A stretch of DNA of 45,943 bases from a virus. The notes beneath the pieces were generated by a model. That model worked only from the letters and a program-made list of their open reading frames with translations. It did not search any database and was not told where the DNA came from. The first letter of the stretch is position 1, and each line of letters starts with the position of its first letter. Shown here piece after piece: positions 3,229-45,902 of this stretch. The stretch lies in the IMG/VR virus record IMGVR_UViG_3300017730_001898, positions 1-45,943 of that record; one strand, given 5' to 3'. The position numbers and the translations under genes are program-made.

Positions 3229-4272
3229 ATGAAAAATAAAAGAGACTTTGTTAAGATCAGGAATGGCATACATAGAAGTAAGCCAGTCACAGACGCAGTA
3301 TTCCCTTTACTCAAAGGGGTAACATTTGGTAAACGTGGAGCATTTGTAACAGTTGATGCAACTGCTTTAATGGGAGCCGAGTTCACAAAAATCAGAGTAC
3401 TAGTTGATTCACCAAGTGAAGTTGTTCCAGCAACTGAGCAAGAGTATAACAACTTTATACCTGAAAACATGAAGCCTAAAGAGAAAAAGGAAACACCTAA
3501 ACAAGCAATGGATAGAATTGCAGAAAGGTTTAATATCCTTGACGAGATGACTGACGCAGTTGCTAACGGTGTTGTTAGAGGACTAATTGTAAGTGGTCCT
3601 CCAGGAGTAGGTAAAAGTTTTGGTGTTGAGACTATACTTGAAGAGTATGACGCAATGGCAAAAATTGGTGGAGCAGTAAAAACAGAAATTGTTAAAGGCT
3701 CAATGACACCGATTGGTTTATATCAAACACTATTTAATAATAGTGCGGCAGGTGACATACTTGTATTTGATGACTGTGATAGTGTACTATTTGATGAAGT
3801 TTGTCTTAATATGCTTAAAGCAGTTTTAGACTCAGGTAAGAAAAGAACTATTAGTTGGAAAGCAGAATCTTCCGCACTAAGAAGAGAAGGAATACCTGAC
3901 AGGTTTGACTTTAAAGGTGGAGTTATCTTTATTACTAATGTAAACTTTGAAAATGTCAGGAGTAAAAAGATACAGGATCATTTAGCCGCTCTTATGTCAA
4001 GATGTCACTACATTGATTTAGGAATGGATTCTATAGACGATAAGTTTATTAGAATTAACCAAATCATTAGAGATGGTATGCTTAAAGAGTATGGCTTTAG
4101 CAAGGAGTTTGAAAAGGAAATCGTTGACTTTATGCATGATAACGCAAAGAGGCTCAGAGAAATATCATTAAGAATGGTACTCAAGATAGCCGACTTGGCA
4201 AAAATGAACTTTGACAACTGGAAGGGGTTAGCAAGGTCAACATGTATGACTAGGTTCGATATCTATTCATAA
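3229..4272 (+). CDS. AAA-family ATPase
   Basis: A 347-residue ATPase. The Walker A motif GPPGVGKS is at about residues 123-130 and Walker B is ILVFDDCD near residues 177-184. A sensor-1-like ITN follows at the end of a hydrophobic strand, and a helical lid lies in the C-terminal third. The first 100 residues form a separate basic N-terminal domain. Proteins of this design are common in marine phages, but I do not know a proven role; remodelling of nucleoprotein complexes or loading of a helicase are typical AAA roles. It has its own consensus promoter and GGGAGG ribosome-binding site, and is followed by hairpins and a terminator, so it is transcribed as a single-gene unit or with read-through from 2941. 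Confidence 0.85.
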   Translation: MKNKRDFVKIRNGIHRSKPVTDAVFPLLKGVTFGKRGAFVTVDATALMGAEFTKIRVLVDSPSEVVPATEQEYNNFIPENMKPKEKKETPKQAMDRIAERFNILDEMTDAVANGVVRGLIVSGPPGVGKSFGVETILEEYDAMAKIGGAVKTEIVKGSMTPIGLYQTLFNNSAAGDILVFDDCDSVLFDEVCLNMLKAVLDSGKKRTISWKAESSALRREGIPDRFDFKGGVIFITNVNFENVRSKKIQDHLAALMSRCHYIDLGMDSIDDKFIRINQIIRDGMLKEYGFSKEFEKEIVDFMHDNAKRLREISLRMVLKIADLAKMNFDNWKGLARSTCMTRFDIYS

Positions 4273-4281
4273 AATCAAGAG

Positions 4282-4327
4282 CCCTTAATAAATATTTTTA
4301 AGGGTTCCCCCTAGTGTTCAGAACCCT
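4282..4327 (+). other. Two mutually exclusive hairpins
   Basis: CCCTTAA at 4282-4288 can pair with TTAAGGG at 4298-4304. AGGGTTC at 4301-4307 can instead pair with GAACCCT at 4321-4327. The bases AGGG (4301-4304) belong to both, so the two stems compete. Neither is followed by a T-tract. They lie between the AAA ATPase stop and a clear terminator. Confidence 0.6.
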
Positions 4328-4345
4328 CCCACTTTGGACACGATT

Positions 4346-4373
4346 AACCCCCAAATTTATTTGGGGGTTTCTT
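4346..4373 (+). terminator. Intrinsic terminator after AAA ATPase gene
   Basis: A perfect 10-bp stem, AACCCCCAAA at 4346-4355 and TTTGGGGGTT at 4360-4369, closes a TTTA tetraloop and is followed by TTCTT. It separates the ATPase unit from the TonB-receptor promoter that starts 12 nt later. As a near-symmetrical stem flanked by A and T runs it may act in both directions. Confidence 0.9.
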
Positions 4374-4384
4374 ATATAAACCTC

Positions 4385-4412
4385 TTGACAAATCCTAATA
4401 CCCATGTATAAT
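4385..4412 (+). promoter_or_regulatory. Consensus promoter for TonB-dependent receptor gene
   Basis: TTGACA at 4385-4390, a 16-nt spacer and TATAAT at 4407-4412. The spacing matches the promoters at 2941 and 3166. Initiation near 4419 gives a leader of about 44 nt with GGAG at 4450-4453 before the ATG at 4463. Confidence 0.88.
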
Positions 4413-4462
4413 TAAAAGTATTAAATTACGACTTTGATCAGTCACTACTGGAGAAATAGATC

Positions 4463-6148
4463 ATGGAAAAATTCCTATATGATAATATCATAAAAATTGC
4501 AATAGTTATTACTTTGCCTTTATGGACAGCCTTTGCACTTGCTGAAGACATAGAAGAGGTAATTGTTATTGCACAAGAAGTAAAACAAACAGAAACAGAT
4601 GCCCTTACAGACACTAAATTAATTAGTGGCATTATGCCAGAATTAACTTACATAGCAGGAGGCTATGGAGGTAATGTGCTATTCAGAGAGCGAGGCACAC
4701 AATCAGTACATACAGCAGTTTATAGAAATGGCATACCGCAAAATACACCTGGTTCAGGCTGGTATGATTTTGCACATGACATTGTATCAGGGGAAGATGT
4801 ATTAGTTATAAGTGGAGCCAATAGTGTAATGTATGGCTCAGGAAGTATTGGTGGTACAGTTTTAATAAAAGACTTAATTAAGAAAGGTGTAACTGGAAGA
4901 CTAGGAAACCAATCTCACAGATATATGTCAGTAGCACCTACAAACTGGCTACAAGTTACAGATTTTTCTGTAAAACAAAACGCAAGAAACGATAACGAAG
5001 AAAAAGATACTTATGAAAACACTAGTGCAAAAATTATAGCAGACGCAGGTGACTTTACACTATATGTAAATGCAACAGATTATGAATACGATTATGATAA
5101 TTGTTATACTGCTAGTTTTACACAGAGTAACGACTGCTTACAGGACGGAGAAAGATTTACAGTAAGCATTAGAAACGAATACTTTACAATAGGAAGATCA
5201 GAAGATAAGGCAGAATATTTTACTGAAGGTGTTAGTACATACCAAAATGAGAGTAGCAGAGACTTTTTTAGAGTAGGCGATACAGCAAAATTATCTAATT
5301 TATTAGATGTCACTTATGGTGTTGATGGTAGCAAAGATCAGTACATGGAACAAAAACAAGACAACTATGGTGCCTTTTTAAGTGTAAATGCCAAGTTTGC
5401 ATTAGAATATAACTTTGGTATTAGGTACGGAAACGAAGATCAAAATGCAGTAAGATTAGGTATCGCAAAAGATCAGTTCTTTTTTAATGTAGGAACTAGT
5501 TACAGAAGACCTAACTTATATGAACTTAATGGTGATGCCTTTGTAGATCCTAATGAAGAATTACTTCCTGAGGAAGGAGTTGGATATGAAATAGGTTTCG
5601 GTGCTATCAGTATTTTTAAATACGAATTTGAAGAAGCAATAGAATATACAGCATCATATTCAGAAACAGTATTGGTTGCACCTGCTACATATGATGCAGA
5701 AGGAAATCTTTTAACTGAGCAAGTAAATGAAACCATTTATTATAATGCAAAATATAATAATTCAGGTTCATACAATACACAGGGTATTAGATTTGCTAAT
5801 ACATTTGGTCCTTTTAGTATTAATTTAAAAGTTAATGATACAGACCAAACTAGAATACCAGAGTATGTTGGTGTTATTACATGGGAACAGATGTTTAAAG
5901 ATGTAAATTATAAAGTACAATACTCAGGACAGTTTGATAGAGAACCTGGACCTTATGATGTTCTTCCTGAAGGAAAAGAGTTCCTAGAAGATCTTACAAA
6001 ACTTAGTGTGTATATTACAAAAAGATTTACTAATGGAATGAATCTTAACTTTGCAATTGATAACATTACTGACGAGGAAGTTGAAGTATTACCATACTAC
6101 AACAACCAAGGCAGGCAAATTAACTTGACATTACAGTACAATTGGTAG
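4463..6148 (+). CDS. TonB-dependent outer-membrane receptor
   Basis: A 561-residue outer-membrane receptor, a rare cargo in a phage. Residues 1-27 form a signal peptide (hydrophobic core, ALA before EDIEE). A TonB-box-like EVIVIAQ is at about residues 32-38. The plug domain (about 45-140) has the family hallmarks VLFRERGTQ, VYRNGIPQ and, most telling, GANSVMYGSGSIGGTVLI. The remaining 420 residues alternate aromatic and polar residues like a beta-barrel and end in NLTLQYNW, with the C-terminal aromatic used for barrel assembly. The barrel is compact compared with typical 22-strand receptors. Family members import siderophores, cobalamin or glycans and serve as phage receptors; the substrate here is unknown. 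It sits between a strong promoter and uvsW, whose -35 box lies in its last codons, so it is an integrated part of the phage genome. Confidence 0.92.
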   Translation: MEKFLYDNIIKIAIVITLPLWTAFALAEDIEEVIVIAQEVKQTETDALTDTKLISGIMPELTYIAGGYGGNVLFRERGTQSVHTAVYRNGIPQNTPGSGWYDFAHDIVSGEDVLVISGANSVMYGSGSIGGTVLIKDLIKKGVTGRLGNQSHRYMSVAPTNWLQVTDFSVKQNARNDNEEKDTYENTSAKIIADAGDFTLYVNATDYEYDYDNCYTASFTQSNDCLQDGERFTVSIRNEYFTIGRSEDKAEYFTEGVSTYQNESSRDFFRVGDTAKLSNLLDVTYGVDGSKDQYMEQKQDNYGAFLSVNAKFALEYNFGIRYGNEDQNAVRLGIAKDQFFFNVGTSYRRPNLYELNGDAFVDPNEELLPEEGVGYEIGFGAISIFKYEFEEAIEYTASYSETVLVAPATYDAEGNLLTEQVNETIYYNAKYNNSGSYNTQGIRFANTFGPFSINLKVNDTDQTRIPEYVGVITWEQMFKDVNYKVQYSGQFDREPGPYDVLPEGKEFLEDLTKLSVYITKRFTNGMNLNFAIDNITDEEVEVLPYYNNQGRQINLTLQYNW

Positions 6149-6154
6149 TATAAT
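6125..6154 (+). promoter_or_regulatory. Promoter for uvsW, predicted leaderless
   Basis: TTGACA at 6125-6130 lies inside the last codons of the receptor gene. An 18-nt spacer and TATAAT at 6149-6154 follow. The -10 box ends five nt before the uvsW ATG at 6160, so initiation would fall at or next to the start codon, leaving no room for a ribosome-binding site. Confidence 0.75.
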
Positions 6155-6159
6155 AAACT

Positions 6160-7617
6160 ATGGCTAAATGTGTTTTAGAAATTAGAGACGAAGTAAACGT
6201 TCGTTTTAAAGGGCTTGATGTGAAAGCAAGACGAAAGATTTCTGATGCCTGTAAATACTTTTTACCACATGCCTACCATATGCCTGCATATAAATTAGGT
6301 AGATGGGACGGTTGTGTCAGGTACTGCGACATTGGTGGCAGAACATATTTTCATTTACTTGATAAATTAGTACCTATAATAACACAGGAAGGTTACGATA
6401 TAGAAATACAAGATAGCAGAAAGGCTTGGGATTTTAAATTTGAACCTGTAACACAAACAAGTTATGATAATGTAGCATGGCCTAAAAAACATCCAGCAGA
6501 AGGTGAGCCTATAATTTTAAGAGATTATCAAGTTGAGATAATTAATAAGTTTTTAGAAAATACACAATGCTTACAAGAGATTGCCACAGGTGCTGGTAAA
6601 ACACTAATAACTGCTGTATTAAGTCACAAATGTGAGGATTATGGCAGAACAATAGTAATAGTGCCTAATAAAGATTTAGTTGTACAAACAGAAAAAGACT
6701 ATAAGAATTTAGGATTAGATGTGGGTGTTTTATATGGAGACAGAAAAGAATATGATAAAACACATACAATTTGTACATGGCAAAGTTTAAGTATATTAGA
6801 AAAGAAAAGTAAAAACTATGAAGCAGATTTCCCTATAGATGAATTTTTAGAAGATGTTGCCTGTGTAATGGTGGACGAAGTTCACAAAGCCAAAGCAGAT
6901 GTTTTAAGAAATTTATTAAGTGGCGTGTTTGCAAATGTTCCTATTAGATGGGGACTTACAGGAACTATACCAAAAGAGGAGTATGACGCAGTTGGTTGTA
7001 CTTGTAGTTTAGGTCCTGTAGTAGGAAAAATGAGCAGTAAAGAATTACAGGACATGGGTGTACTTGCAGATTTAGATATTAATATTTTGCAATTACAAGA
7101 TGGAATGATACAATTTGGTAATTATGCTCAAGAGTTGAAATGGCTAGTAACTGACGAAAAAAGACTAAAAGAGATATCTGAGATAATAAAAGGTGTTGCA
7201 GTAAACGGAAATACTTTAGTTTTAATAGACAGAATAGCCACAGGAGAAAGATTAGAAGAGTTAAATTCTGATTGGGTGTTTGTTTCAGGTTCAATGAAAC
7301 AAGCAGACAGGCAGGAAAACTATGATGATGTATCTGAAATGGATAATAAAGTTATAGTTGCAACTTATGGTGTTGCGGCTGTAGGTATTAATATACCAAG
7401 AATATTTAACTTAGTTATGTTAGAACCAGGAAAAAGTTTTGTAAGAGTAATACAAAGTATAGGCAGAGGCATTAGAAAAGCCTCTGATAAAGACTATCTT
7501 AATGTATTAGATATTACTAGTAATTTAAAATATAGTAAAAGACATCTTACAAAGCGAAAGCAATTTTATAAAGAGCAAGGTTTTAGGTTTCAAGTAACAA
7601 AGGTTGATTACAAATAA
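6160..7617 (+). CDS. uvsW: UvsW, superfamily 2 DNA helicase
   Basis: Branch-migration and D-loop-unwinding helicase that in T4 shifts replication from origins to recombination. At 485 residues it is close to T4 UvsW (503). Motif I ATGAGKT is at about residues 142-148, and motif II is DEVH at about 239-242. GLTGT (motif III) follows, and motif VI QSIGRGIRKA lies near residue 433. The N-terminal 100 residues match the small double-stranded-DNA-binding domain of UvsW (RWDGCVRY). No ribosome-binding site precedes the ATG; the promoter at 6125 predicts a leaderless transcript. Confidence 0.95.
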   Translation: MAKCVLEIRDEVNVRFKGLDVKARRKISDACKYFLPHAYHMPAYKLGRWDGCVRYCDIGGRTYFHLLDKLVPIITQEGYDIEIQDSRKAWDFKFEPVTQTSYDNVAWPKKHPAEGEPIILRDYQVEIINKFLENTQCLQEIATGAGKTLITAVLSHKCEDYGRTIVIVPNKDLVVQTEKDYKNLGLDVGVLYGDRKEYDKTHTICTWQSLSILEKKSKNYEADFPIDEFLEDVACVMVDEVHKAKADVLRNLLSGVFANVPIRWGLTGTIPKEEYDAVGCTCSLGPVVGKMSSKELQDMGVLADLDINILQLQDGMIQFGNYAQELKWLVTDEKRLKEISEIIKGVAVNGNTLVLIDRIATGERLEELNSDWVFVSGSMKQADRQENYDDVSEMDNKVIVATYGVAAVGINIPRIFNLVMLEPGKSFVRVIQSIGRGIRKASDKDYLNVLDITSNLKYSKRHLTKRKQFYKEQGFRFQVTKVDYK

Positions 7618-10923: not shown

Positions 10924-12030
10924 ATGTACGAATTTACAAGTGAAAGTGTCAGTAGTGGGCACCCTGATAAAATAGCAGACAAAATATCTGATGCCGTAGC
11001 AACATATTTAATAGATAAAAATATTAATCACAGAGCGGCAGTAGAAACTTTGGTAACCACAAATATGGTTACACTTGCAGGAGAATATAAAAGCAATAAA
11101 TTTAATAAAGATGAAATTGAAGATATTGTTAGAGCAATAGTGCAAGATATAGGTTATGAGCAAGACGGATTTCATTGGGAAAGACTAAAAGTTTATAATG
11201 AACTACATGGGCAAAGTCCAGATATTGCATTAGGAACAGATGATTTTGGTGCAGGTGACCAAGGACTTATGTTTGGTTATGCATGTAACGAGACACCTAA
11301 CTACATGCCTAGTGCAATTTTTTATAGCCATGAGATACTTAAAGTATTAGAAGATGAAAGACGTAAAGGAGATACTTTACTTAACTCTTCATGGTTAGGA
11401 CCAGACAGTAAAGCACAGGTAACCTTTAATTACGACTCTGTTGGCAAACCTATTGATATTAAATCGATTGTTTGTAGTACTCAACATAGTGACGACCTAA
11501 GCATAGAAGAGGTCAGACAACGTGTAATAGACATTATATTGCCTGTAGTAATAGAAAAAATAAATCCAAATACTGTATGGCATATAAATCCAACTGGCAG
11601 ATTTGTAATAGGCGGACCAGATGGTGACACAGGATTGACTGGTAGAAAAATTATTGTTGATACTTATGGAGGTTACGCACCACATGGTGGCGGAGCATTT
11701 AGTGGTAAAGATTGTACAAAAGTAGATAGAAGTGCCGCCTACATGGCTAGATATCTAGCAAAAAATGTAGTTGCAAGTAGTAAAGCAGAAAACTGTACAA
11801 TACAGTTAAGTTATGCTATTGGTATAAAACAACCTACAAGTGTATATGTATATGCAGATGGAAAAGTAAGGCAGGATATTGCAGACGAAATTATTGCTAA
11901 AGTTGATCTTACACCTAAAGGTATTATAGATAAGTTCGATTTATTTAATTTAGACTTAACAGAAACAACAAATTATGGACATTTTGGTAAAGCAAGTATG
12001 CCATGGGAACAGATAGACTTATGGACATAA
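10924..12030 (+). CDS. metK: S-adenosylmethionine synthetase
   Basis: Makes S-adenosylmethionine from methionine and ATP in the cytoplasm. The 368-residue protein is slightly shorter than E. coli MetK (384) but keeps the signatures. The N-terminal ESVSSGHPDKIADKISDAV carries the ATP-binding and metal-binding residues. In the middle it has the GDTGLTGRK motif, and the GGGAFSGKDCTKVDRSAAY segment forms the active-site lysine/aspartate region. A phage-encoded copy would raise SAM supply for methylation or other SAM-dependent reactions, or compensate for a phage SAM-degrading enzyme (none is seen here). It overlaps the next gene, adenine phosphoribosyltransferase. Confidence 0.95.
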   Translation: MYEFTSESVSSGHPDKIADKISDAVATYLIDKNINHRAAVETLVTTNMVTLAGEYKSNKFNKDEIEDIVRAIVQDIGYEQDGFHWERLKVYNELHGQSPDIALGTDDFGAGDQGLMFGYACNETPNYMPSAIFYSHEILKVLEDERRKGDTLLNSSWLGPDSKAQVTFNYDSVGKPIDIKSIVCSTQHSDDLSIEEVRQRVIDIILPVVIEKINPNTVWHINPTGRFVIGGPDGDTGLTGRKIIVDTYGGYAPHGGGAFSGKDCTKVDRSAAYMARYLAKNVVASSKAENCTIQLSYAIGIKQPTSVYVYADGKVRQDIADEIIAKVDLTPKGIIDKFDLFNLDLTETTNYGHFGKASMPWEQIDLWT

Positions 12031-25644: not shown

Positions 25645-25925
25645 GATTAGAAGAATTTACAGATGAGCCTATTATAGAAGCCAGAATGGTTTGGCGTAAA
25701 ATGGGTAACACAGTAAAACGTGCTATCAGATGTACAAGTGGTAGACGCAAAGGTAGAGTAGTGAGTAATCCTAGTCAATGCAATAAGCCTATAGATTTTA
25801 GAAAACGTTTAACAATGAAGAAAACAAAAGCAAGATTGGGTGCAAGAATGTCTAGACGAGCACAAAGAACTAAACGTTTTAATATACAAAGCAAAAGAGT
25901 AAAAGCACTTAATAAGAGAAGATAA
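25641..25925 (+). CDS. Very basic small late protein with prohead-protease-like site
   Basis: A 94-residue protein whose ATG at 25641 overlaps the preceding stop (ATGA). The N-terminus MRLEEFTDEPIIEARM contains I-I-E|A, a match to the prohead-protease consensus. The remaining 80 residues are extremely rich in Arg and Lys (CTSGRRKGRVVS, MSRRAQRTKRF) and have a Cys pair. This composition fits a DNA-binding protein packaged with the genome, like the basic T4 internal proteins. Similar basic proteins (SGRRKGR motif) are familiar from marine T4-like phages, without known function. Its stop overlaps the giant gene start. Confidence 0.7.
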   Translation: MRLEEFTDEPIIEARMVWRKMGNTVKRAIRCTSGRRKGRVVSNPSQCNKPIDFRKRLTMKKTKARLGARMSRRAQRTKRFNIQSKRVKALNKRR

Positions 25926-28900
25926 TGAAGTTTAAAGATGTTAAAACTTTAGAACATTTATTAAAAGAGTATGGTGCATCTTCAGGTGGAGGTGCAGTAG
26001 GTGGTGGTGGACACGGTGCTAGTGCAAAAGCAAATAAGTCTAAAAAATCTATAGCAAGTGGACCAGATGTTAGTACTGCATCTCCAACTGTAACAGGACA
26101 ACCTGCACAAAAACCTCAACAAGCAAAGCCAAGTACTAATCAAGTAAAAGCAAAAGATTTACAAGACGGCGATATGGTTGTCAGCAAAGATGGTAAAACG
26201 GCAGAAGTATATTCTAAAGTAGGGCAAGGAAACAATCCTAGTGCATTAATTACAAAAGACAAACAAGGCAATCTAGCAGAAATACCAAAAGACGAAACAG
26301 TAGATGCTATACAACCAAATAAACCAGGAGAGTTAGATACCATACCTGATGAAAAAGAAAGAACAAGTTTCAAAGATAGAATTAAGCAAGGAATGGCATT
26401 AGGAAATAAAATTGCTGGTGTAGATGAAGGTAAGTTAGGTAAACTTGCTAAAGGCAAAGGTAGAAAATTACAAATTAGAAAATTAAAAGGTAAAATTAAA
26501 AGACTTGCTAAATCAAAATTAAAAGAAGCAAATCCAAAATTATTTGAAATAAACTTTAACAGAAAAAGTGTAGCAAGAGAAGCCTTAGATACTCCAGTAA
26601 AATGTGGTTTTGAAGCAGAAACATTTTTCTATAATGTTGAAGGTGGCAATAGTTCTCATGTTGATGATATGAGTATCGGAGACATTGAGTACGAATACGG
26701 TGACTTACCAGATAGTGCATATGAAGATTATAGATCATGGTTATATGATAAAGGACAAGAAGATTATTTAGACGACCTAGTAGCAGATAAAATTCAGGAA
26801 GTTAAAGAAGATGAAGACTGGCTAGATGAGTTTATAGATAGTAGCTCAGGTCCAAGTTCAGAAGCAATAGAAAGATATAAAGACGATTTCCAAGACGCCG
26901 ATCCCAAAGAATACGAAAACCGTGAAGAAGATGGTTGGACTTATATAAACTGGGTAAGAGAATATGTTGAAGAAGAATACGAAGATGAATACCATGAATG
27001 GTTAGATGGTGCGGTTAGAGAAGATTACAATTTAGATGATGAAGCCACAGAGGCCGCTGAACAAGACTACAGTATGGACGATTGGGTATATGACAACTAT
27101 AGTTATATGAGTGATTTCCTAAATGATTATGGTTATGAATATAGTGATGGAGGCGGAGATGTTGAACAAGTTGCCTCAGAATTACATACTTGGGCTGAGA
27201 ACAACAGTAAATTTACGGACTTTCCGGAATCAGGGGATTACGGTGATACTTATACCACAACTGCTTGGGCTGTGGAAAAAGATAGCAGTATCGAACCTGA
27301 TGAAGGTACTGGTGCAGAACTTATATCACCGGTATTTGATAGTCCCAGAAAAATGCTTTCTGAAATGAAAAGTTTATTTGACTGGAGTGAAGAAAACTTT
27401 GGAACAAATAATTCAACAGGACTTCACGTTACTATGAGTTGGAACGGTGAACCAGATGCACCTGTGGATGAGAACGGTAGAAGGGAAGGCCAAGAACTTA
27501 ACAAATTAAAAATGGCATTACTGTTAGGTGACCCGTACTTACTAGCAGAATTTGGTAGACTTAGAAACAGTTATACAAAAAGCCAATATAATAATATATT
27601 AAAATATGCCGAAGGTATGAAACGTGGAGATGCTAACAGTTTGGAAGAGTTTGAAAAAATGTTATCAAAAGGAATAGATACAGGTAAATTTAATACTATC
27701 CACTTTAAGGATGATAAGGACAGAGACTCAAATAATAAACTTATAGAGTTTAGAATAGCCGGTGGTGCAGATTACAATGAAATGTATGAAAAAGTTGTAA
27801 AAGCAGTTGTGCGATATGCTACTGTGATGAAAGCAGGATATGATAAAAATGCATACAGAGATGATTATGTTAATGCAGTATTTAGGTTATTGCGTAAATC
27901 ACAGGAAATAGATCCTAAAAAATTAAAAGATTTAGAAGTTGTTAATCATCCTATAATAGATTCAGCAAAAGAAATAGTTGGTAAAAAGGATTACTTTGAT
28001 GTTGTAAGGTATTTAAGTAATAGTGTGGAATACTATAACGAGTATAAAAACTTATCTGATCCAGATGCAGATAAAAAATGGAAACAAAGTATAAAAGATT
28101 ATAAAAAAGGCACTGGCAGAGATCCAAGTTGGGTGGGCGAAGCAGAAGAAGGCGAATCAATAACTGGTTACATAGAGCCAAGTAGCATGCCACCAAGTAA
28201 GAGGGCAGAAGGCAGATTCCAAAAATCACAAGAGAGTTTTATTAATGCTGTTGTAATTTTGTCTAGAGATATAGCAGATGGTATTACTAGAGGCTCTGTA
28301 AGAGCTAAAGACATTAGTATATTTAGAGATTATTCCAAACAATTAGAATTAGACGATAAAAAATTACAAGGATTGGCCTTAAGGCAATTAAACGACCAAA
28401 ACTACAACGGTACAGATAAAGAAAATATAGCAAGACTTAAAAAAGGAATAGATACTTTATTTAAAAGGGATATAATACAAGAGCCAGGATTTATGTCCCA
28501 TCAGGATGTAGATGTAATATTAAAACAATTATGGCAATTCTTCCAAACAGATGATAGTGATGATTATCATAAAAGAGTTGAATTAGCAGATTTGCTAATA
28601 GGTGCAAATCCAAATATGGCAGGTCTTGGAAACAATAAAGATGATGATGAAAAGCATGGCCTAGTAATGGATTTTTTACAAGAAATTTCTCATACAAGAC
28701 AATTAAATACTTTTGTTGCTAAACTCAGAGGATCAGGTTACGGTAATTATATTACACCAATTGAATCTGGTAAAATGACAAATCAAGATGAAGTAGAAAG
28801 TCTTAAGAAATTTTTAGAGCCTTATGGAGGATATGATCATCCTACAAGTAAGGATCATCATATAAACATCAAAAGTGATGACAAGTATGAAGATGTAGCA

Positions 28901-31900
28901 AAAAGTTCTCTAATACAAAAATGTAGAACTAGATTAGACTATATAAAAGATCTACAAAACAGTGAACCAGAAAAGTATCAAAAAATTAAAACTAAACTAA
29001 TAAAAATAGGTGAGACTCTTGTAGATACTATAGTTGCACCTGAAGATGGAGAAGGCATAGAAGGTGCTGATATTACTGATAAAGATGGAACAAATATAAG
29101 TGGATTTATAAAAGATCAATATAATAGGCAAGATAGTTGGTGTCTTAATTTACATCGTAGGGATTGGAATAATACAAAGGATTTTCTAGCCAAATCAGGA
29201 GATAAAGACGACGACACATATAATTTTACTTCAGCATATGACGATTATGTTGTAAGAAATCCATTTAGTATGGTTTTAGATTATTATAAAAGTAAAAGTG
29301 ACTTCGCTAATATACATAAAAATTCAGAAGTTAAAAAGATTGTTAAAAATAACTTTGCAGGCTTTAAAAAGTTTTTTAATGAGTTTGATAAAATATTTAC
29401 ATCAGAAGGATTTACAGATCTTAAAGCAGAGATATCAGATAAAGACAGATACGATAAACGTAACAAAGACTTTGAAAAAAATGTTAGAGATAATGCTAAA
29501 GCCAAGTTAAATATTCCTAGTCATAGTTTTATATATTTCGATAAAGATTTTTGGGAAACACTCACAGACAATAGTTATGCTGACAGAGGGCCATGGCTAG
29601 ATAATAATTTAGATCATTTTGGAGATGACCTTAACAAAGAAGGTAAAATTTATGTTATACCTTCAGCACATTGGTCACAGGCCGACGATGCATTTAATGG
29701 TTTGGATCTTATAAAGAATTTTGAAAATGCTAAAAATTATTTTCATACATGGCGTAGAATAGGATATAATAAAATACTCAGCAAGTTCATGGCCAAATAT
29801 AATGTATCTTTTGAAAATCTTACAGATAGACAAGGTAAGTATATGTCTCAACCTGATAATATGGAATCAACTTTAAGTGATTTTGCTATTGAGGTTACAC
29901 ATAAAGGTGATAGCAGATCCGGTGCGCCTGGGCAAGAAGATTTAGTTCCAACAGAAGATTTAGAAAATCCAAACAGTGGTGAGCCAATTAATAGAGGTTC
30001 TGCAATGATGTGGGATCAGAGTACAGACGATGCAGAGAAAAAACGTTTTGATGCATTTGATTGGGGATTGTATCCAACAAAAATGAAAGATGTTGTTGCT
30101 AAAGAAATGGAAAACGAATCTAGTTTCCAACTGGCATTACAAAATGTACTACAGAAAGTTCTTGATAATAAAGTAGATATAGATCAAAATGATTTAGGCT
30201 TGCCTGATGAAAAAATTATGTATGCGGCTGGTGTAGATGGTAGCGAGTTAGAAGGTAAAGCATCAAATACTATATCACAGAAAGCAAATTGGACTAACCT
30301 AGCAGATTATTTAAAATTAGAACGTGGTGTAAATGATCAGGGTGTAAACTTACTTAAAAAAGTACACAGTCAGTATGACAGTGACGGCCAAAAATATAGA
30401 ACAAAAGACGATAATATTACTGTGGGAATGGAAAGATGGCTATTGGCTGTAAAAGATGCTATTAAATATATAGAAACAAATTATAAAGTTAGTGGCGGTA
30501 ACTATTTTAGAGATGGCGATGATGTAAGTGATGTACATAGTTCAACAACAGACCACGAAAGCGGAGTTGCAATAGAAGATTACGATGAAATGCGTAGTAA
30601 ATATTTTAATTTTAATGCTATGATGATGAATGGTATGCAAAATTATTTAGTACAAACAGATGTAAACAGACTGGTAGGATTCCTTAAAAATCCAGACAAT
30701 GATGAAGAATTTAAAAAGGATGTTTTACAAAGCATGATGAGAGAAAGAGAATTAGGAATGGAACCAAATGACTTCCAAGGTGCATTAGCCAGGGGTAGAA
30801 TGTATTCTCAACGTCAAAGAGAAAGTGTGTTTAATAGATTTGAAAATTTGCCTTTAGAGGAACAATTAACAATTATATCTAAATCTAAAGTATTAGAAAA
30901 TTTAAGTAAAAAAAGCGAAGGTCCATCTAGTGATGCTTTGCCAGACAATAGTATTCCTTATCTGCTTAATAAACTACTTGCTGAGCCTATGAAGGCAGGA
31001 GATCTTAGAAAGCAAATGGATGCATATTGGGCCTTACCAGTACCTCAAATGCTATCAGATTTTAGAGCCGTAAGAGCACAAGGCGGCAAAGAAGCAGATT
31101 GCAGAAATATTTTGAAGCAGTATATTAATTCACAACTAGATCCACAAATTAAAAAGCATGTAAAACTTGTAGAAAATAAAGATGATGTAATTGATAGAAT
31201 AAAAGGACTACCAGATGAAGATAAGCAAACAGACAAAGTAGTTCAATATATAGAACAATTATTAGATGATATGGGAGTAGGTGGTAGATTAGCCAGTTTG
31301 ACATCTAATTTAGAAGATATAGATGACGAGGAAGTTAAAAAATCTAATGTAAAACTTGCTAAAATAATTTCAAGTATAGAAATGACACCATTAGAAAGAG
31401 CACAACTGTTTGCAAGTTGGAAACAAGATAAATTAATAGATGTTAAAAAATTACTTTCAGGTAATGGGCAAACATTTAGTGAAGTATTTAAAGGGTATGG
31501 AGACGAAATTTATATGACAGAACTTATAGACGATTTAGCGGATGTAGATTCATATGGTATAGGTGCAGGAGAGTTTTTACTTGCAGTATTAAGTCAGAAA
31601 ATAAAAGGTATTGGTTCAACAGGCGGTTCAGGAGATTTACTAATAGATGGTAGAAATGTAGAAGTAAAAACAAAAACAAGCCGAAATGCTCGTTTTAAAG
31701 ACTGGCATGTACAACCTGACCAAACATGGGCAAGTAAAGTAGAAAAATTTAAACAAGACTTTGCAGACATAGATGAGGTTTCAGGTGCGGCAACAACAGG
31801 AATGAACTCTACGCAATTAAGTGCTATGTTAAAAAATCCTGTATTGCAACAAAATCCTGAAAGGAAGAAACAAGCATTATTAAGTATTATGGCTATATTT

Positions 31901-32197
31901 AAAGCAACTAATACTAACTTATCGTCAGCACAATATAAAGAATTAGTAAATTTATTAGATGCAGGAGATGACTCAGCATTTAAACAAAAATATGGTGCAT
32001 ATAATATACTTAACTATTTAAATATTAAACGTAGTGATGGGGAATTAGAGGGTATATTATTCATGAATAAGAAAACTAAAACAGTTCATTATGTTAAAGA
32101 TTTAAATGACATACAAAATTTAGCATTAGAGGTAGGAACAATTTATCCTATTAGTACAAATAGTATATATCCTTATCCTCAAATAGGAGTCAAATAA
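25925..32197 (+). CDS. Giant polyvalent protein with amidoligase-like and PD-(D/E)XK nuclease-like domains
   Basis: A 2090-residue protein, the largest in the window. The N-terminus MKFKDVKTLEHLLKEYGA has the cargo-type start, followed by a Gly/Lys/Pro-rich linker to about residue 120. An amidoligase-like domain spans about residues 225-700. It shows CGFEAETFF near 227 (GxExE type), GTGAELISPVF near 461, and STGLHVTMSW near 497, the motifs of glutamine-synthetase-fold amidoligases. A long, highly charged helical middle follows. Near the C-terminus GAGEFLL (about 1880) and GDLLIDGRNVEVKTK (about 1902-1916) give the E, D and ExK residues of a PD-(D/E)XK nuclease. Multi-domain giants of this kind are known as phage polyvalent proteins, thought to be delivered with the DNA. 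Domain calls are by motif only. Confidence 0.7.
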   Translation: MKFKDVKTLEHLLKEYGASSGGGAVGGGGHGASAKANKSKKSIASGPDVSTASPTVTGQPAQKPQQAKPSTNQVKAKDLQDGDMVVSKDGKTAEVYSKVGQGNNPSALITKDKQGNLAEIPKDETVDAIQPNKPGELDTIPDEKERTSFKDRIKQGMALGNKIAGVDEGKLGKLAKGKGRKLQIRKLKGKIKRLAKSKLKEANPKLFEINFNRKSVAREALDTPVKCGFEAETFFYNVEGGNSSHVDDMSIGDIEYEYGDLPDSAYEDYRSWLYDKGQEDYLDDLVADKIQEVKEDEDWLDEFIDSSSGPSSEAIERYKDDFQDADPKEYENREEDGWTYINWVREYVEEEYEDEYHEWLDGAVREDYNLDDEATEAAEQDYSMDDWVYDNYSYMSDFLNDYGYEYSDGGGDVEQVASELHTWAENNSKFTDFPESGDYGDTYTTTAWAVEKDSSIEPDEGTGAELISPVFDSPRKMLSEMKSLFDWSEENFGTNNSTGLHVTMSWNGEPDAPVDENGRREGQELNKLKMALLLGDPYLLAEFGRLRNSYTKSQYNNILKYAEGMKRGDANSLEEFEKMLSKGIDTGKFNTIHFKDDKDRDSNNKLIEFRIAGGADYNEMYEKVVKAVVRYATVMKAGYDKNAYRDDYVNAVFRLLRKSQEIDPKKLKDLEVVNHPIIDSAKEIVGKKDYFDVVRYLSNSVEYYNEYKNLSDPDADKKWKQSIKDYKKGTGRDPSWVGEAEEGESITGYIEPSSMPPSKRAEGRFQKSQESFINAVVILSRDIADGITRGSVRAKDISIFRDYSKQLELDDKKLQGLALRQLNDQNYNGTDKENIARLKKGIDTLFKRDIIQEPGFMSHQDVDVILKQLWQFFQTDDSDDYHKRVELADLLIGANPNMAGLGNNKDDDEKHGLVMDFLQEISHTRQLNTFVAKLRGSGYGNYITPIESGKMTNQDEVESLKKFLEPYGGYDHPTSKDHHINIKSDDKYEDVAKSSLIQKCRTRLDYIKDLQNSEPEKYQKIKTKLIKIGETLVDTIVAPEDGEGIEGADITDKDGTNISGFIKDQYNRQDSWCLNLHRRDWNNTKDFLAKSGDKDDDTYNFTSAYDDYVVRNPFSMVLDYYKSKSDFANIHKNSEVKKIVKNNFAGFKKFFNEFDKIFTSEGFTDLKAEISDKDRYDKRNKDFEKNVRDNAKAKLNIPSHSFIYFDKDFWETLTDNSYADRGPWLDNNLDHFGDDLNKEGKIYVIPSAHWSQADDAFNGLDLIKNFENAKNYFHTWRRIGYNKILSKFMAKYNVSFENLTDRQGKYMSQPDNMESTLSDFAIEVTHKGDSRSGAPGQEDLVPTEDLENPNSGEPINRGSAMMWDQSTDDAEKKRFDAFDWGLYPTKMKDVVAKEMENESSFQLALQNVLQKVLDNKVDIDQNDLGLPDEKIMYAAGVDGSELEGKASNTISQKANWTNLADYLKLERGVNDQGVNLLKKVHSQYDSDGQKYRTKDDNITVGMERWLLAVKDAIKYIETNYKVSGGNYFRDGDDVSDVHSSTTDHESGVAIEDYDEMRSKYFNFNAMMMNGMQNYLVQTDVNRLVGFLKNPDNDEEFKKDVLQSMMRERELGMEPNDFQGALARGRMYSQRQRESVFNRFENLPLEEQLTIISKSKVLENLSKKSEGPSSDALPDNSIPYLLNKLLAEPMKAGDLRKQMDAYWALPVPQMLSDFRAVRAQGGKEADCRNILKQYINSQLDPQIKKHVKLVENKDDVIDRIKGLPDEDKQTDKVVQYIEQLLDDMGVGGRLASLTSNLEDIDDEEVKKSNVKLAKIISSIEMTPLERAQLFASWKQDKLIDVKKLLSGNGQTFSEVFKGYGDEIYMTELIDDLADVDSYGIGAGEFLLAVLSQKIKGIGSTGGSGDLLIDGRNVEVKTKTSRNARFKDWHVQPDQTWASKVEKFKQDFADIDEVSGAATTGMNSTQLSAMLKNPVLQQNPERKKQALLSIMAIFKATNTNLSSAQYKELVNLLDAGDDSAFKQKYGAYNILNYLNIKRSDGELEGILFMNKKTKTVHYVKDLNDIQNLALEVGTIYPISTNSIYPYPQIGVK

Positions 32198-42030: not shown

Positions 42031-44319
42031 ATGCAAGTTAAAAAACGAGACGGCACACTAGAAGATTTAAACATAGACAAGTTACACAAAGTAGTTATGT
42101 ATGCATGTGAAGACATCTCAGGTGTTAGTGCATCAGAAGTAGAGATAAACTCCAAAATTCAGTTCTTTGAATCAATAGCAACAGAAGATATTCAAGAGAC
42201 ACTTATTAAAAGTGCCGCAGATTTAATCACTGAAGAAGCACCAAACTATCAATATGTAGCAGGTAGACTTATTAACTATCATTTGCGTAAAATGGTATAT
42301 GGTGAATTTGAGCCTCCTTGCTTATGTGATATAATACAAAAAAATATTGATCTAGGTTTTTATGATTCTGAGTTTACTGATTTATATACAAAAGAAGAAA
42401 TAAATCAATTACAAGAATATATAGATCATAACAGAGATGAAGTTTTAACCTATGCGGCTATGGAACAATTCCGTGGTAAGTATCTAGTACAAAACAGAGC
42501 AAGTGGTGAAATATTTGAAACACCACAAGTAGCATACATGATGATTGCGGCCACATTGTTTAGTAACTATCCAATAGAAAACAGAATGAGCTATGTAAAA
42601 GCCTATTATGATGCTATTAGCACATTTAAAATTTCCTTGCCTACGCCAGTTATGGCAGGTGTTAGGACGCCACAAAGACAATTTAGTTCATGTGTACTAA
42701 TTGAAACAGATGACAGTTTAGATAGCATTAATGCAACAAGTAGCAGTATTGTAAAGTATGTAAGTCAGAAAGCAGGTATCGGCATTGGTGCTGGTAGTAT
42801 TAGAGCCGTAGGCTCCAAAATTAGGAGTGGAGATGCAACTCATACAGGAGTTATTCCATTCTATAAAATGTTTCAGTCAGCAGTTAAGAGTTGTAGCCAA
42901 GGTGGAGTAAGAGGCGGAGCCGCTACATTATACTACCCTATTTGGCATTTGGAAGTTGAGGACTTATTAGTATTAAAGAACAATAAGGGCACAGAGGACA
43001 ACAGAGTGCGTCACATGGACTATGGTGTACAGTTTAATAAACTAATGTATGAAAGATTAATTACTGGCGGTAATATTACTTTGTTTAGTCCACAAGATGT
43101 GCCAGGATTATATGACTGCTTCTTTAATGATCAAGACAAATTTAAAGAGTTATACGAAAAAGCAGAACGTATGACAAGTATTAGAAAAAAATCTATACCA
43201 GCATTAGAACTGTTTAGTAATTTTGTTACAGAAAGAAAAGACACAGGTAGAATATACTTAATGAATGTTGATCATGCAAATGATCATGGTGCATTTATAT
43301 CTGATATAGCACCTGTAAAACAAAGTAATCTTTGCTGTGAAATAGATTTACCCACAAAGCCCTTAACAGACATTAACGATCCTGAAGGCGAAATAAGTTT
43401 ATGTACATTAAGTGCTGTAAATTGGGGTGTTGTAAAAGATACAACAGAAATACAAAAAGTATGTAATTTGGCAGTAAGAGGATTAGATGAGTTACTAGAT
43501 TATCAAGAGTATCCTGTTTTAGCGGCACAATATAGCACTATGAACAGACGCCCACTAGGAGTTGGTATAATTAATTTCGCATATTGGTTAGCAAAAAATG
43601 ATACCACTTATCAGGAGCCTAACTTAGATTTAGTAGATGAATGGGCAGAAGCCTGGAGTTATGGTCTTATAAAAGCAAGTGCCGACTTGGCAGTAGAGAA
43701 AGGTGCATGTCCTAAAAATATGGAAACAAAATATGGGCACGGTATTACTCCTAACCAAACATATAAAGAAGATGTAGATGATTTAGTAAAGCATAAAGAA
43801 AGGCAAGATTGGAAAGGATTAAGAAAACAATTAAAAGAAACAGGAATCAGAAATAGTACACTAATGGCATTAATGCCTGCAGAAACATCTGCACAAATTA
43901 GTAATAGTACAAATGGTATTGAACCTCCACGAAGTTATGTAAGTATCAAGCAAAGTAAACATGGAGTATTAAAGCAGGTAGTACCAGGATATCCTTATTA
44001 TAAAAACAAATATGATTTATTATGGGAACAGAAGTCTCCACAGGGTTACTTAAAAATTATGGCAGTATTACAAAAGTATATTGATCAAGGTATTAGTGTA
44101 AACACTAGTTATAACCCTGAACATTACGAAGATGAGAAGGTTCCAATGAGTGTTTTAATACAAGATATACTGATGTTTTATAAATACGGTGGCAAACAAT
44201 TATACTATAATAATACCTACGATGGTCAGGGCGAAATTGATATACATAAAGATGACGCTCAAGAAGACCTCGCCATCACTGAAATAGATGATGAAGATTG
44301 TGAGAGTTGTAAGATATGA
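42031..44319 (+). CDS. nrdA: Ribonucleotide reductase class Ia, large subunit
   Basis: Reduces ribonucleoside diphosphates to deoxyribonucleotides for phage DNA synthesis. The 762-residue length is close to T4 NrdA (754). An N-terminal ATP-cone begins VKKRDGTLEDLNIDKL. SSCVLIETDDSLDSI holds the first redox Cys, SNLCCEIDLPT the active-site N-x-C-x-E, and ISLCTLSAVN the partner Cys. The C-terminus ends CESCKI, the Cys pair that is re-reduced by thioredoxin or glutaredoxin. It overlaps the GIY-YIG gene by 4 nt and forms an operon with nrdB. Confidence 0.97.
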   Translation: MQVKKRDGTLEDLNIDKLHKVVMYACEDISGVSASEVEINSKIQFFESIATEDIQETLIKSAADLITEEAPNYQYVAGRLINYHLRKMVYGEFEPPCLCDIIQKNIDLGFYDSEFTDLYTKEEINQLQEYIDHNRDEVLTYAAMEQFRGKYLVQNRASGEIFETPQVAYMMIAATLFSNYPIENRMSYVKAYYDAISTFKISLPTPVMAGVRTPQRQFSSCVLIETDDSLDSINATSSSIVKYVSQKAGIGIGAGSIRAVGSKIRSGDATHTGVIPFYKMFQSAVKSCSQGGVRGGAATLYYPIWHLEVEDLLVLKNNKGTEDNRVRHMDYGVQFNKLMYERLITGGNITLFSPQDVPGLYDCFFNDQDKFKELYEKAERMTSIRKKSIPALELFSNFVTERKDTGRIYLMNVDHANDHGAFISDIAPVKQSNLCCEIDLPTKPLTDINDPEGEISLCTLSAVNWGVVKDTTEIQKVCNLAVRGLDELLDYQEYPVLAAQYSTMNRRPLGVGIINFAYWLAKNDTTYQEPNLDLVDEWAEAWSYGLIKASADLAVEKGACPKNMETKYGHGITPNQTYKEDVDDLVKHKERQDWKGLRKQLKETGIRNSTLMALMPAETSAQISNSTNGIEPPRSYVSIKQSKHGVLKQVVPGYPYYKNKYDLLWEQKSPQGYLKIMAVLQKYIDQGISVNTSYNPEHYEDEKVPMSVLIQDILMFYKYGGKQLYYNNTYDGQGEIDIHKDDAQEDLAITEIDDEDCESCKI

Positions 44320-44801
44320 ACAGTAATGAATTAAAACAATTAGGTTTTACCAAGGCAGGTGATGTTGATGTAGTTATCAGAAATGATGTACCAGACTTAA
44401 ATGCTACACATACACCATTTGCAAGTGAAGTAAAGTCAGGGGTATATTGTTGGGTACTTGTAAACGATACTAATAAAAAAGAAGAAGTAATTTATATAGG
44501 TAAATATGGAAAGTCTATAAAAAAGAGATGGGGAGAACACAGGCAAGGTTTCAGAGGTGGTAGTGGTACAGGTATCAAAAATGCAGAATACATTATACAG
44601 CAATTAGCAGAAACTGATATCAGAATGGAATTATGGGGTAAGCAGAGTCATATTGAAGAATTTTCTTATACTAATATTGTAGGCACAGAAATAACAAAAA
44701 CTTTTTCTACCTATAGTGTAGATGAAGAAGATTTAATAGCATTCTATATGCAAAAGAACGGAAAAAGACCAGCACTTAATAGGACAAAAGGCGGAAATTA
44801 A
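44316..44801 (+). CDS. GIY-YIG nuclease-like protein between nrdA and nrdB
   Basis: A 161-residue protein. GVYCWVLV followed by VIYIGKYGKSIKKRWGEHRQ fits the GIY-YIG nuclease fold: GVY for GIY, YIG, and then a basic helix with Arg and His. A later VDEEDLIAFYM could provide the metal-binding Glu, and the C-terminus ends PALNRTKGGN, typical of the fold (LN near the end). Phage members are mostly homing endonucleases, but there is no separate DNA-binding domain here. The gene is stitched seamlessly between nrdA (ATGA overlap) and nrdB (3-nt gap). Confidence 0.68.
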   Translation: MNSNELKQLGFTKAGDVDVVIRNDVPDLNATHTPFASEVKSGVYCWVLVNDTNKKEEVIYIGKYGKSIKKRWGEHRQGFRGGSGTGIKNAEYIIQQLAETDIRMELWGKQSHIEEFSYTNIVGTEITKTFSTYSVDEEDLIAFYMQKNGKRPALNRTKGGN

Positions 44802-44804
44802 AAA

Positions 44805-45902
44805 ATGACAGTATTAGATACAAAAAATAAGAAACATCATACTAAAGCAAAGATGTTTTTAGATCCATCAGGCGGTCCTGTTGTACAAAGGTATGAAACA
44901 CTAAAGTATAAACAGTTTGATAAACTAACTGATAAACAGTTGGGCTTCTTTTGGAGACCAGAGGAAGTTGATATCCTTAAAGACGCAACCGACTTTAAAA
45001 ATCTTACAGACTTTGAACAGCATATTTTTACAAGTAATTTAAAGCGACAAATCATACTTGATAGTGTACAAGGTCGCTCACCTAATCTGGCTTTTCTGCC
45101 TATAGTAAGTCTACCAGAATTAGAAACCTGGATAGAAACTTGGGCATTTAGTGAAACTATACACAGTAGAAGTTATACACATATTATTAGAAACGTCTAT
45201 CCTGACCCAAGCAAAGTTTTTGATACTATGTTAGACATACAAGAAATATGTGATTGTGCAGATAGTATTACAGAAAATTATAACAAACTAATTGAATATA
45301 ATCTTTTAAGAGACAAAGGTTATAAAACATATGATGAATATGAACATAAGAAAAGAATATGGTTAGCATTAATGAGTGTAAACATATTAGAAGGTGTACG
45401 TTTTTATGTTAGTTTCGCATGTAGTTGGGCTTTTGCAGAACTTAAAAGAATGGAAGGTAACGCAAAAATAATTAAACTTATTGCCAGAGACGAAAATGTA
45501 CACTTAGCAAGTACACAACAGATGCTAAAATTTTTACCAAAAGACGATCCAGACTTTGAGAAAATAAGAAAAGAAACTTATGAAGAATGTACACAAATGT
45601 TTGTAGATGCAGTAGAGCAGGAAAAAACATGGGCAGAATATTTGTTTAAAGACGGAAGTATTATAGGCCTTAATGCAGAACTATTAAAGCAATATGTAGA
45701 GTTTATCGCGGCCAAACGAATGCATGCCGTGGGTCAGGAGAAGATATATAATAGTGGTACCAATCCATTACCTTGGACTCAAGCATGGATTACAGGTGGA
45801 TCAGTACAAGTTGCTCCACAAGAGACAGAAATATCATCATACGTTATAGGTGGTACCAAACAAGACGTTGATGGAGACACATTTAAAGGTTTTAGTTTAT
45901 AA
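44805..45902 (+). CDS. nrdB: Ribonucleotide reductase class Ia, small subunit
   Basis: Carries the di-iron/tyrosyl-radical cofactor for NrdA. The 365-residue protein is close to E. coli NrdB (376). LDSVQGR gives the first iron-ligand Asp. AFSETIHSRSYTHI gives Glu, His and the radical Tyr in the same spacing as E. coli E115, H118 and Y122. LEGVRFYVSF gives the next Glu, and RDENVHLA gives the final Glu and His. All ligands are intact, so the enzyme should be active. The stop overlaps the start of the next, truncated gene. Confidence 0.97.
   Translation: MTVLDTKNKKHHTKAKMFLDPSGGPVVQRYETLKYKQFDKLTDKQLGFFWRPEEVDILKDATDFKNLTDFEQHIFTSNLKRQIILDSVQGRSPNLAFLPIVSLPELETWIETWAFSETIHSRSYTHIIRNVYPDPSKVFDTMLDIQEICDCADSITENYNKLIEYNLLRDKGYKTYDEYEHKKRIWLALMSVNILEGVRFYVSFACSWAFAELKRMEGNAKIIKLIARDENVHLASTQQMLKFLPKDDPDFEKIRKETYEECTQMFVDAVEQEKTWAEYLFKDGSIIGLNAELLKQYVEFIAAKRMHAVGQEKIYNSGTNPLPWTQAWITGGSVQVAPQETEISSYVIGGTKQDVDGDTFKGFSL

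Follow-up and report, generated by a model that had tools for sequence, protein, structure and literature searches.

The window analysed here is a 45,943-nt stretch of viral DNA (IMG/VR record IMGVR_UViG_3300017730_001898, positions 1 to 45,943). Among its recombination genes lies an ORF that reads as a TonB-dependent outer-membrane receptor (TBDR). Does this gene belong to the phage, what kind of receptor would it encode, and what could such a protein do during infection?

The receptor gene and its predicted product

The region comprises the following features.

4-1107: UvsX
3229..4272, + strand: AAA ATPase of phrog_1250 (E 3e-86), the conserved 5′ neighbour
4346..4369, + strand: terminator-like hairpin, 10 pairs with a 4-nt loop
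4385..4412, + strand: consensus sigma-70 promoter of the receptor gene, TTGACA-16-TATAAT (12/12 match)
4463-6148, + strand: receptor ORF, ATG start, 561 aa without internal stop; predicted BtuB-like TonB-dependent outer-membrane receptor
4463..4543, + strand: signal peptide, residues 1-27
4544..4576, + strand: TonB box region EDIEEVIVIAQ, residues 28-38, aligned with BtuB DTLVVTA
4598..4873, + strand: plug domain (Pfam Plug), residues 46-137, more conserved than any other structural class in the receptor
4886..6145, + strand: predicted 22-strand beta-barrel (AF2 model), residues 142-561
6125..6154, + strand: consensus uvsW promoter, TTGACA-18-TATAAT (perfect match), beginning within the final codons of the receptor gene
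6160..7617, + strand: UvsW-like helicase (phrog_16, E 1.6e-73), the conserved 3′ neighbour
10924..12030, + strand: MetK, S-adenosylmethionine synthetase (TIGR01034, 430 bits, above cut-off)

The original prediction described a full receptor with signal peptide, TonB box, plug and C-terminal aromatic residue, and each of these elements was recovered. Pfam Plug (PF07715) matches residues 47-132 above its gathering score (E 6e-9) and is detected in 35/35 aligned family members (E <= 0.1); no barrel-domain match was obtained for the receptor as a single sequence. The TonB-box-like stretch DIEEVIVIA occupies residues 29-37, with E31 and V35 invariant in the 35 phage proteins (family form EDIEEVxVxA), and the C-terminal aromatic is W561. 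The signal segment, judged by eye, is a low-confidence helix in the model with a drop at residues 17-31, and the N-terminus is hydrophobic in all relatives. An AF2 model built with alignment A1 (35 phage relatives) has a mean pLDDT of 84.8 and a pTM of 0.82, and displays the expected fold, an N-terminal plug with 22 barrel strands (counted manually from DSSP). As judged from this model and the sequence features, the ORF is confirmed as an intact TonB-dependent receptor with signal peptide, TonB box, Plug and predicted barrel.

Both promoters lie where they had been placed by the original prediction, that of the receptor just 3′ of the terminator stem and that of uvsW in the last codons of the receptor. 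Among relatives, the receptor promoter matches the consensus fully in 28 rows and with one mismatch in 12, and the uvsW promoter does so fully in 42; the window and its own copy, L001, are counted in both cases.

Three other ORFs of the window were noted in passing. The 381-aa ORF at 1788-2933 has no family match, and its counterparts at the same place in relatives are 26-100% identical or missing, making this a variable spot within the recombination module. A GIY-YIG-like ORF (44316-44801; Pfam match slightly under cut-off) sits between nrdA (42031-44319) and nrdB (44805-45902), and positions 25925-32197 hold an ORF of 2090 aa.

Spread and conservation among large phages

Searching IMG/VR with the single receptor protein returned 92 relatives, 78 loci of which were kept (32-97% identical), and the order AAA ATPase-receptor-UvsW was found in most relatives of the window. 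Starting instead from UvsW, we found the receptor directly upstream of this gene in 71 of its 80 closest IMG/VR relatives; eight had a clean gap of 110-504 bp and one was cut. All complete receptor copies are open (61/61), and comparison with ten close relatives gives dN/dS values of 0.09-0.19. The receptor is thus under strong purifying selection, and it is a nearly fixed gene of a lineage of large uncultured phages.

Because TBDR genes occur mostly in bacteria and a single window was at hand, we also weighed contamination by bacterial DNA, a chimeric assembly and a recently acquired passenger without function. A chimera at this locus is refuted because the same gene order recurs across dozens of independent contigs. 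The synteny in 71/80 relatives, the dN/dS values below 0.2 and the uninterrupted copies likewise indicate that the gene is no passenger, in agreement with the earlier view of it as a stable part of the phage. The bacterial matches, moreover, are no closer than distant BtuBs. We regard any explanation of this type as extremely improbable.

The earlier assignment to a T4-like phage was not borne out. The UvsW of the window is at best 55% identical to that of PA5oct-type phages, and single receptor copies occur in relatives whose records reach 340, 250 and 217 kb; the lineage is therefore jumbo-phage-like and not that of a small T4-like phage. No receptor homologue was detected by tblastn in 50,697 phage records, and no Plug protein was present in six cultured jumbo phages with related UvsW. 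For a close bacterial donor, two scans of bacterial genome contigs and a Bacteroidota survey returned distant TBDRs only.

Receptor alleles appear, from sequence comparison, to have been swapped between phages. In L075, UvsX, the AAA ATPase and UvsW are 93-96% identical to those of the window and the receptor is 47% identical; in L012, the receptor is 94% and the AAA ATPase 75% identical.

Several loci differ in their arrangement. An empty AAA ATPase-UvsW site of 110 bp (504 bp in two) occurs in L253, L259, L261, L267, L269, L273, L281 and L283, which makes these relatives natural controls. In L020-L024 and L055 the cassette is locally rearranged to receptor-AAA-UvsW. In L011:7448-9683, L013:7448-9695 and L014:7447-9695, receptor alleles with 69-71% identity to that of the window lie in a tail/baseplate-like region away from UvsW, directly behind a SAH/MTA-nucleosidase-like gene. 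Two receptors, L075:7944-9944 (667 aa) and L071:7992-10019 (676 aa), carry long insertions in two extracellular regions.

Relationship to BtuB and the predicted cobalamin site

The comparison with BtuB, FhuA and siderophore receptors that had been proposed put BtuB first. The top Foldseek match of the AF2 model is E. coli BtuB, which is also the best VIA-align match (2gsk, Z 37.2 over 499 residues, 2.5 A). Bacteroides B12 receptors follow at Z 32-34, with the haem and zinc receptors ChuA/ShuA and ZnuD at about 31, FhuA at 29 and siderophore receptors within Z 28-31, clearly lower. Searched against the PDB, the A1 phage profile matched BtuB at 5.6e-23 and the next family at 1e-3. The two B12-receptor models of NCBIfam were the best matches for all four phage members tested, below cut-off. 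The window receptor scored 26.9 bits against TIGR01779, for which the equivalog cut-off is 599.7, and for this reason we do not file it as an equivalog; seven riboswitch-linked bacterial BtuBs also fell under this cut-off (157-344 bits).

Kinship was assessed blind to gene names. We took the best 30 matches with loci from 385 genomes of a gammaproteobacterial class (that of genome G420), scanned their DNA with Rfam, and used as controls 20 receptors, each the best barrel-family match of its genome. A cobalamin riboswitch preceded 29 of the 30 best matches (27 RF00174 and two AdoCbl-II) and 5 of 20 control TBDRs (Fisher p 1e-7); it was also present at the three best matches among 398 genomes of the phylum. 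Riboswitch-linked controls scored 43-66 bits with the phage profile, and controls scanned without a riboswitch scored <= 15. Aligning the phage proteins to the riboswitch-linked BtuBs with hidden Markov models gave E 1e-71, a value that the global mode inflates and that is not comparable with a search. In the tree, the phage proteins form one monophyletic clade on a long branch (1.56), which may lie either beside BtuB or inside it.

Two approaches were set aside. A bacterial BtuB HMM did not discriminate as a classifier (phage proteins 67-122 bits, other bacterial TBDRs up to 166), and a grouping of the phage clade with L160/L162/L165 was flagged as a long-branch join and dropped once those sequences were removed.

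The extracellular features of the receptor are as follows.

4979..5008, + strand: loop L2, residues 173-182; E180 and D182 fall on BtuB D193 and D195 (conservation 0.77)
5081..5137, + strand: loop L3, YxYDYDNC...C, residues 207-225; Y211-D212 fall on BtuB Y229-D230 (conservation 0.78)
5651..5746, + strand: hypervariable loop L8, residues 397-428, of 1-69 residues across the family
5852..5854, + strand: R464, aligned with BtuB R497; R in 35/35 phages and 24/32 bacterial BtuBs

In BtuB, five aspartates next to the B12 pocket form a cage around two calcium ions, and loops L2-L5 matter for binding, with L3 residues including Y229 and D230 contacting cobalamin (PMC7360065). Phage residues were mapped onto BtuB by profile alignment at low identity, not by superposed coordinates. 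We take the calcium aspartates to be residues 193, 195, 230, 179 and 241, and R497 to be a cobalamin contact. With this mapping, E180, D182, Y211-D212 and R464 are invariant in 35/35 phage proteins; the BtuB set has E/D at 193 and D at 195. The combination [DE]193, D195 and D230 occurs in 35/35 phages by column, 35/39 bacterial BtuBs and 1/22 other TBDRs, and with R497 added the counts are 35/35, 28/39 and 0/22. Other positions diverge: D179 of BtuB aligns with S/N/H in the phages and D241 with D in only 17/35, in loops where the register is unsure, and the BtuB contacts Y573 and Y577 are changed to V and P.

These four lines (structure, profile, riboswitch kinship and site residues) place the receptor with BtuB, and by sequence and predicted structure it is BtuB-like. 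We describe it as BtuB-like and working like BtuB, and not as a TIGR01779 member, because the cut-off was missed, the BtuB HMM was unselective and the phage branch is long. It shares with E. coli BtuB (PDB 2GSK, 1NQH) the Plug and 22-strand barrel (predicted for the phage), the TonB box, the C-terminal aromatic, the acidic L2/L3 cage residues (193, 195 and 230) and R497. It differs in its low identity (18%), shorter precursor (561 aa vs 614), extra L3 cysteine pair, hypervariable L8 and own sigma-70 promoter, with no riboswitch found.

On a BtuB-like scaffold the protein might import another substrate, such as an iron-siderophore, haem, zinc or another corrinoid or tetrapyrrole. TBDR folds are shared, and ChuA/ShuA, ZnuD and siderophore receptors match the model at Z 28-31; the invariant L3 cysteines C214 and C225 are specific to the phages, with no such pair in BtuB. 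Against this, B12 receptors rank first in the structure, PDB sequence and NCBIfam searches, nearly all of the nearest bacterial genes are cobalamin-riboswitch genes, and the BtuB calcium-site residues are invariant. We consider a different substrate quite unlikely.

A second alternative is superinfection exclusion or receptor swap, with the protein acting as a decoy, as a competitor for the assembly machinery or as a replacement of a host BtuB that serves as receptor, and with uptake incidental. Phages and colicins are well known to use host BtuB and other TBDRs as receptors, and the early consensus promoter, the apparent allele swaps (L075 and L012) and the variable length of L8 would all suit such a role. 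Phage-encoded proteins that act in this way at the outer membrane include the small lipoproteins Llp of T5 and Cor of N15, which occlude FhuA and block superinfection; these, however, are not 22-strand transporters. A decoy could do without an invariant TonB box, plug or calcium/B12 site, yet it is these features that never vary here; among the extracellular loops, L2 and L3 show the highest conservation, and purifying selection is strong. Exclusion as the main function therefore seems unlikely to us. The protein may act at the cell surface in addition to importing its ligand, because allele exchange and the range of L8 fit phage or bacteriocin pressure or host switching. Among the roles initially offered, import of cobalamin is thus favoured by the BtuB match, the site, the TonB box and the riboswitch-linked kin; iron or siderophore uptake ranks lower, and the surface role is a weaker rival.

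Proposed cobalamin import and its possible use during infection

No cobalamin riboswitch of the phage receptor gene was found in the window and 17 relatives; weak matches at 4264-4374 were far under the family thresholds and were rejected. Our preferred reading, to which we give a probability of about 0.7, is that the gene encodes a phage BtuB. The receptor would be made early from the host-type sigma-70 promoter and exported to the host outer membrane, where cobalamin (or another corrinoid) would bind at a calcium-organised extracellular site. Import would proceed through the plug, with the TonB box docked on host TonB. Because no cobalamin riboswitch was found at the phage gene, its expression should escape the B12 feedback that governs its bacterial kin. 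The early promoter, the lack of a detected riboswitch, the conserved TonB box and the conserved calcium/B12 site together suggest unregulated B12 import during infection. Insertion into the outer membrane, binding of cobalamin and its transport by way of TonB, as well as timing, benefit and host, are inferred. With less certainty, the imported cobalamin would most likely supply methyl-group chemistry, through a phage radical-SAM enzyme and/or host MetH feeding the phage MetK.

Candidate users of B12 are encoded by some of the larger relatives.

L102:58-1908, L103:1375-3231 and L104:1-1899: B12-binding radical-SAM proteins, KedN5-like where scanned

Such proteins occur in the 340-kb record, its 217-kb near-twin and the 250-kb record. 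A further copy is on a 53-kb contig that carries a receptor of 93% identity, and the copies of the 250-kb record and this contig each share 34-35% identity with the 340-kb one. The best NCBIfam match of the two scanned proteins is a KedN5-type methylcobalamin-dependent methyltransferase, below cut-off (E 5e-67 for the copy of the 340-kb genome and 4e-64). The radical-SAM protein of G012 is under the B12-binding Pfam cut-off. The 46-kb window has no B12-binding radical-SAM gene and its RNR is class Ia, which is B12-independent. No B12-binding domain was detected in six cultured jumbo relatives, the B12-binding domain of the radical-SAM proteins gave one weak tblastn match in 50,697 phages, and no methionine synthase (MetH) domain PF02965 was detected in 12 phage records.

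MetK is close to the receptor in most relatives whose sequence extends far enough to cover it, and a SAH/MTA-nucleosidase-like gene occurs in several, including the three loci (L011, L013 and L014) where it directly precedes the receptor. SAM synthesis needs no B12, so MetK alone is only suggestive of B12 use. A link between the receptor and methyl/B12 metabolism is a hypothesis, as the large genomes are few and gene sharing by descent could yield the same pattern. A more ambitious scheme, which we think possible but rather doubtful, is that this jumbo-phage lineage takes over B12 acquisition: a riboswitch-free, near-core BtuB would feed methylcobalamin-dependent radical-SAM chemistry together with MetK and the SAH/MTA nucleosidase, with B12 limiting for virus production.

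The original prediction knew of no characterised example of such a receptor in a T4-like phage. That statement needs amending in one respect: a putative SusC-type TonB-dependent receptor, with a proposed carbohydrate role in nutrient uptake, was reported from the marine megaphage Mar_Mega_1 and one relative (PMC9723777). Like the present gene it is a TBDR in a large marine phage, but it is of the SusC class. The only TBDR-named match in BFVD was likewise a SusC-type protein of an uncultured marine phage (805 aa, TM 0.57, 12% identity). In the open-access full-text literature we found no report of a phage-encoded BtuB. B12-linked phage genes described previously are cyanophage cobS (PMC9301287) and the cobalamin-dependent RNR of cobaviruses (PMC6775973). 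These concern the synthesis of B12 or its use by intracellular enzymes, whereas the present gene is predicted to encode an outer-membrane uptake receptor.

B12 is scarce in water and is exchanged between microbes. Our results suggest that these phages make infected cells import B12. If this is true, the lineage has kept an outer-membrane nutrient receptor as a near-fixed gene and preserved its functional site, and an altered cell surface could change which other phages and bacteriocins bind. Overriding the riboswitch would turn infected cells into a sink for B12 and would tie virus production to vitamin supply.
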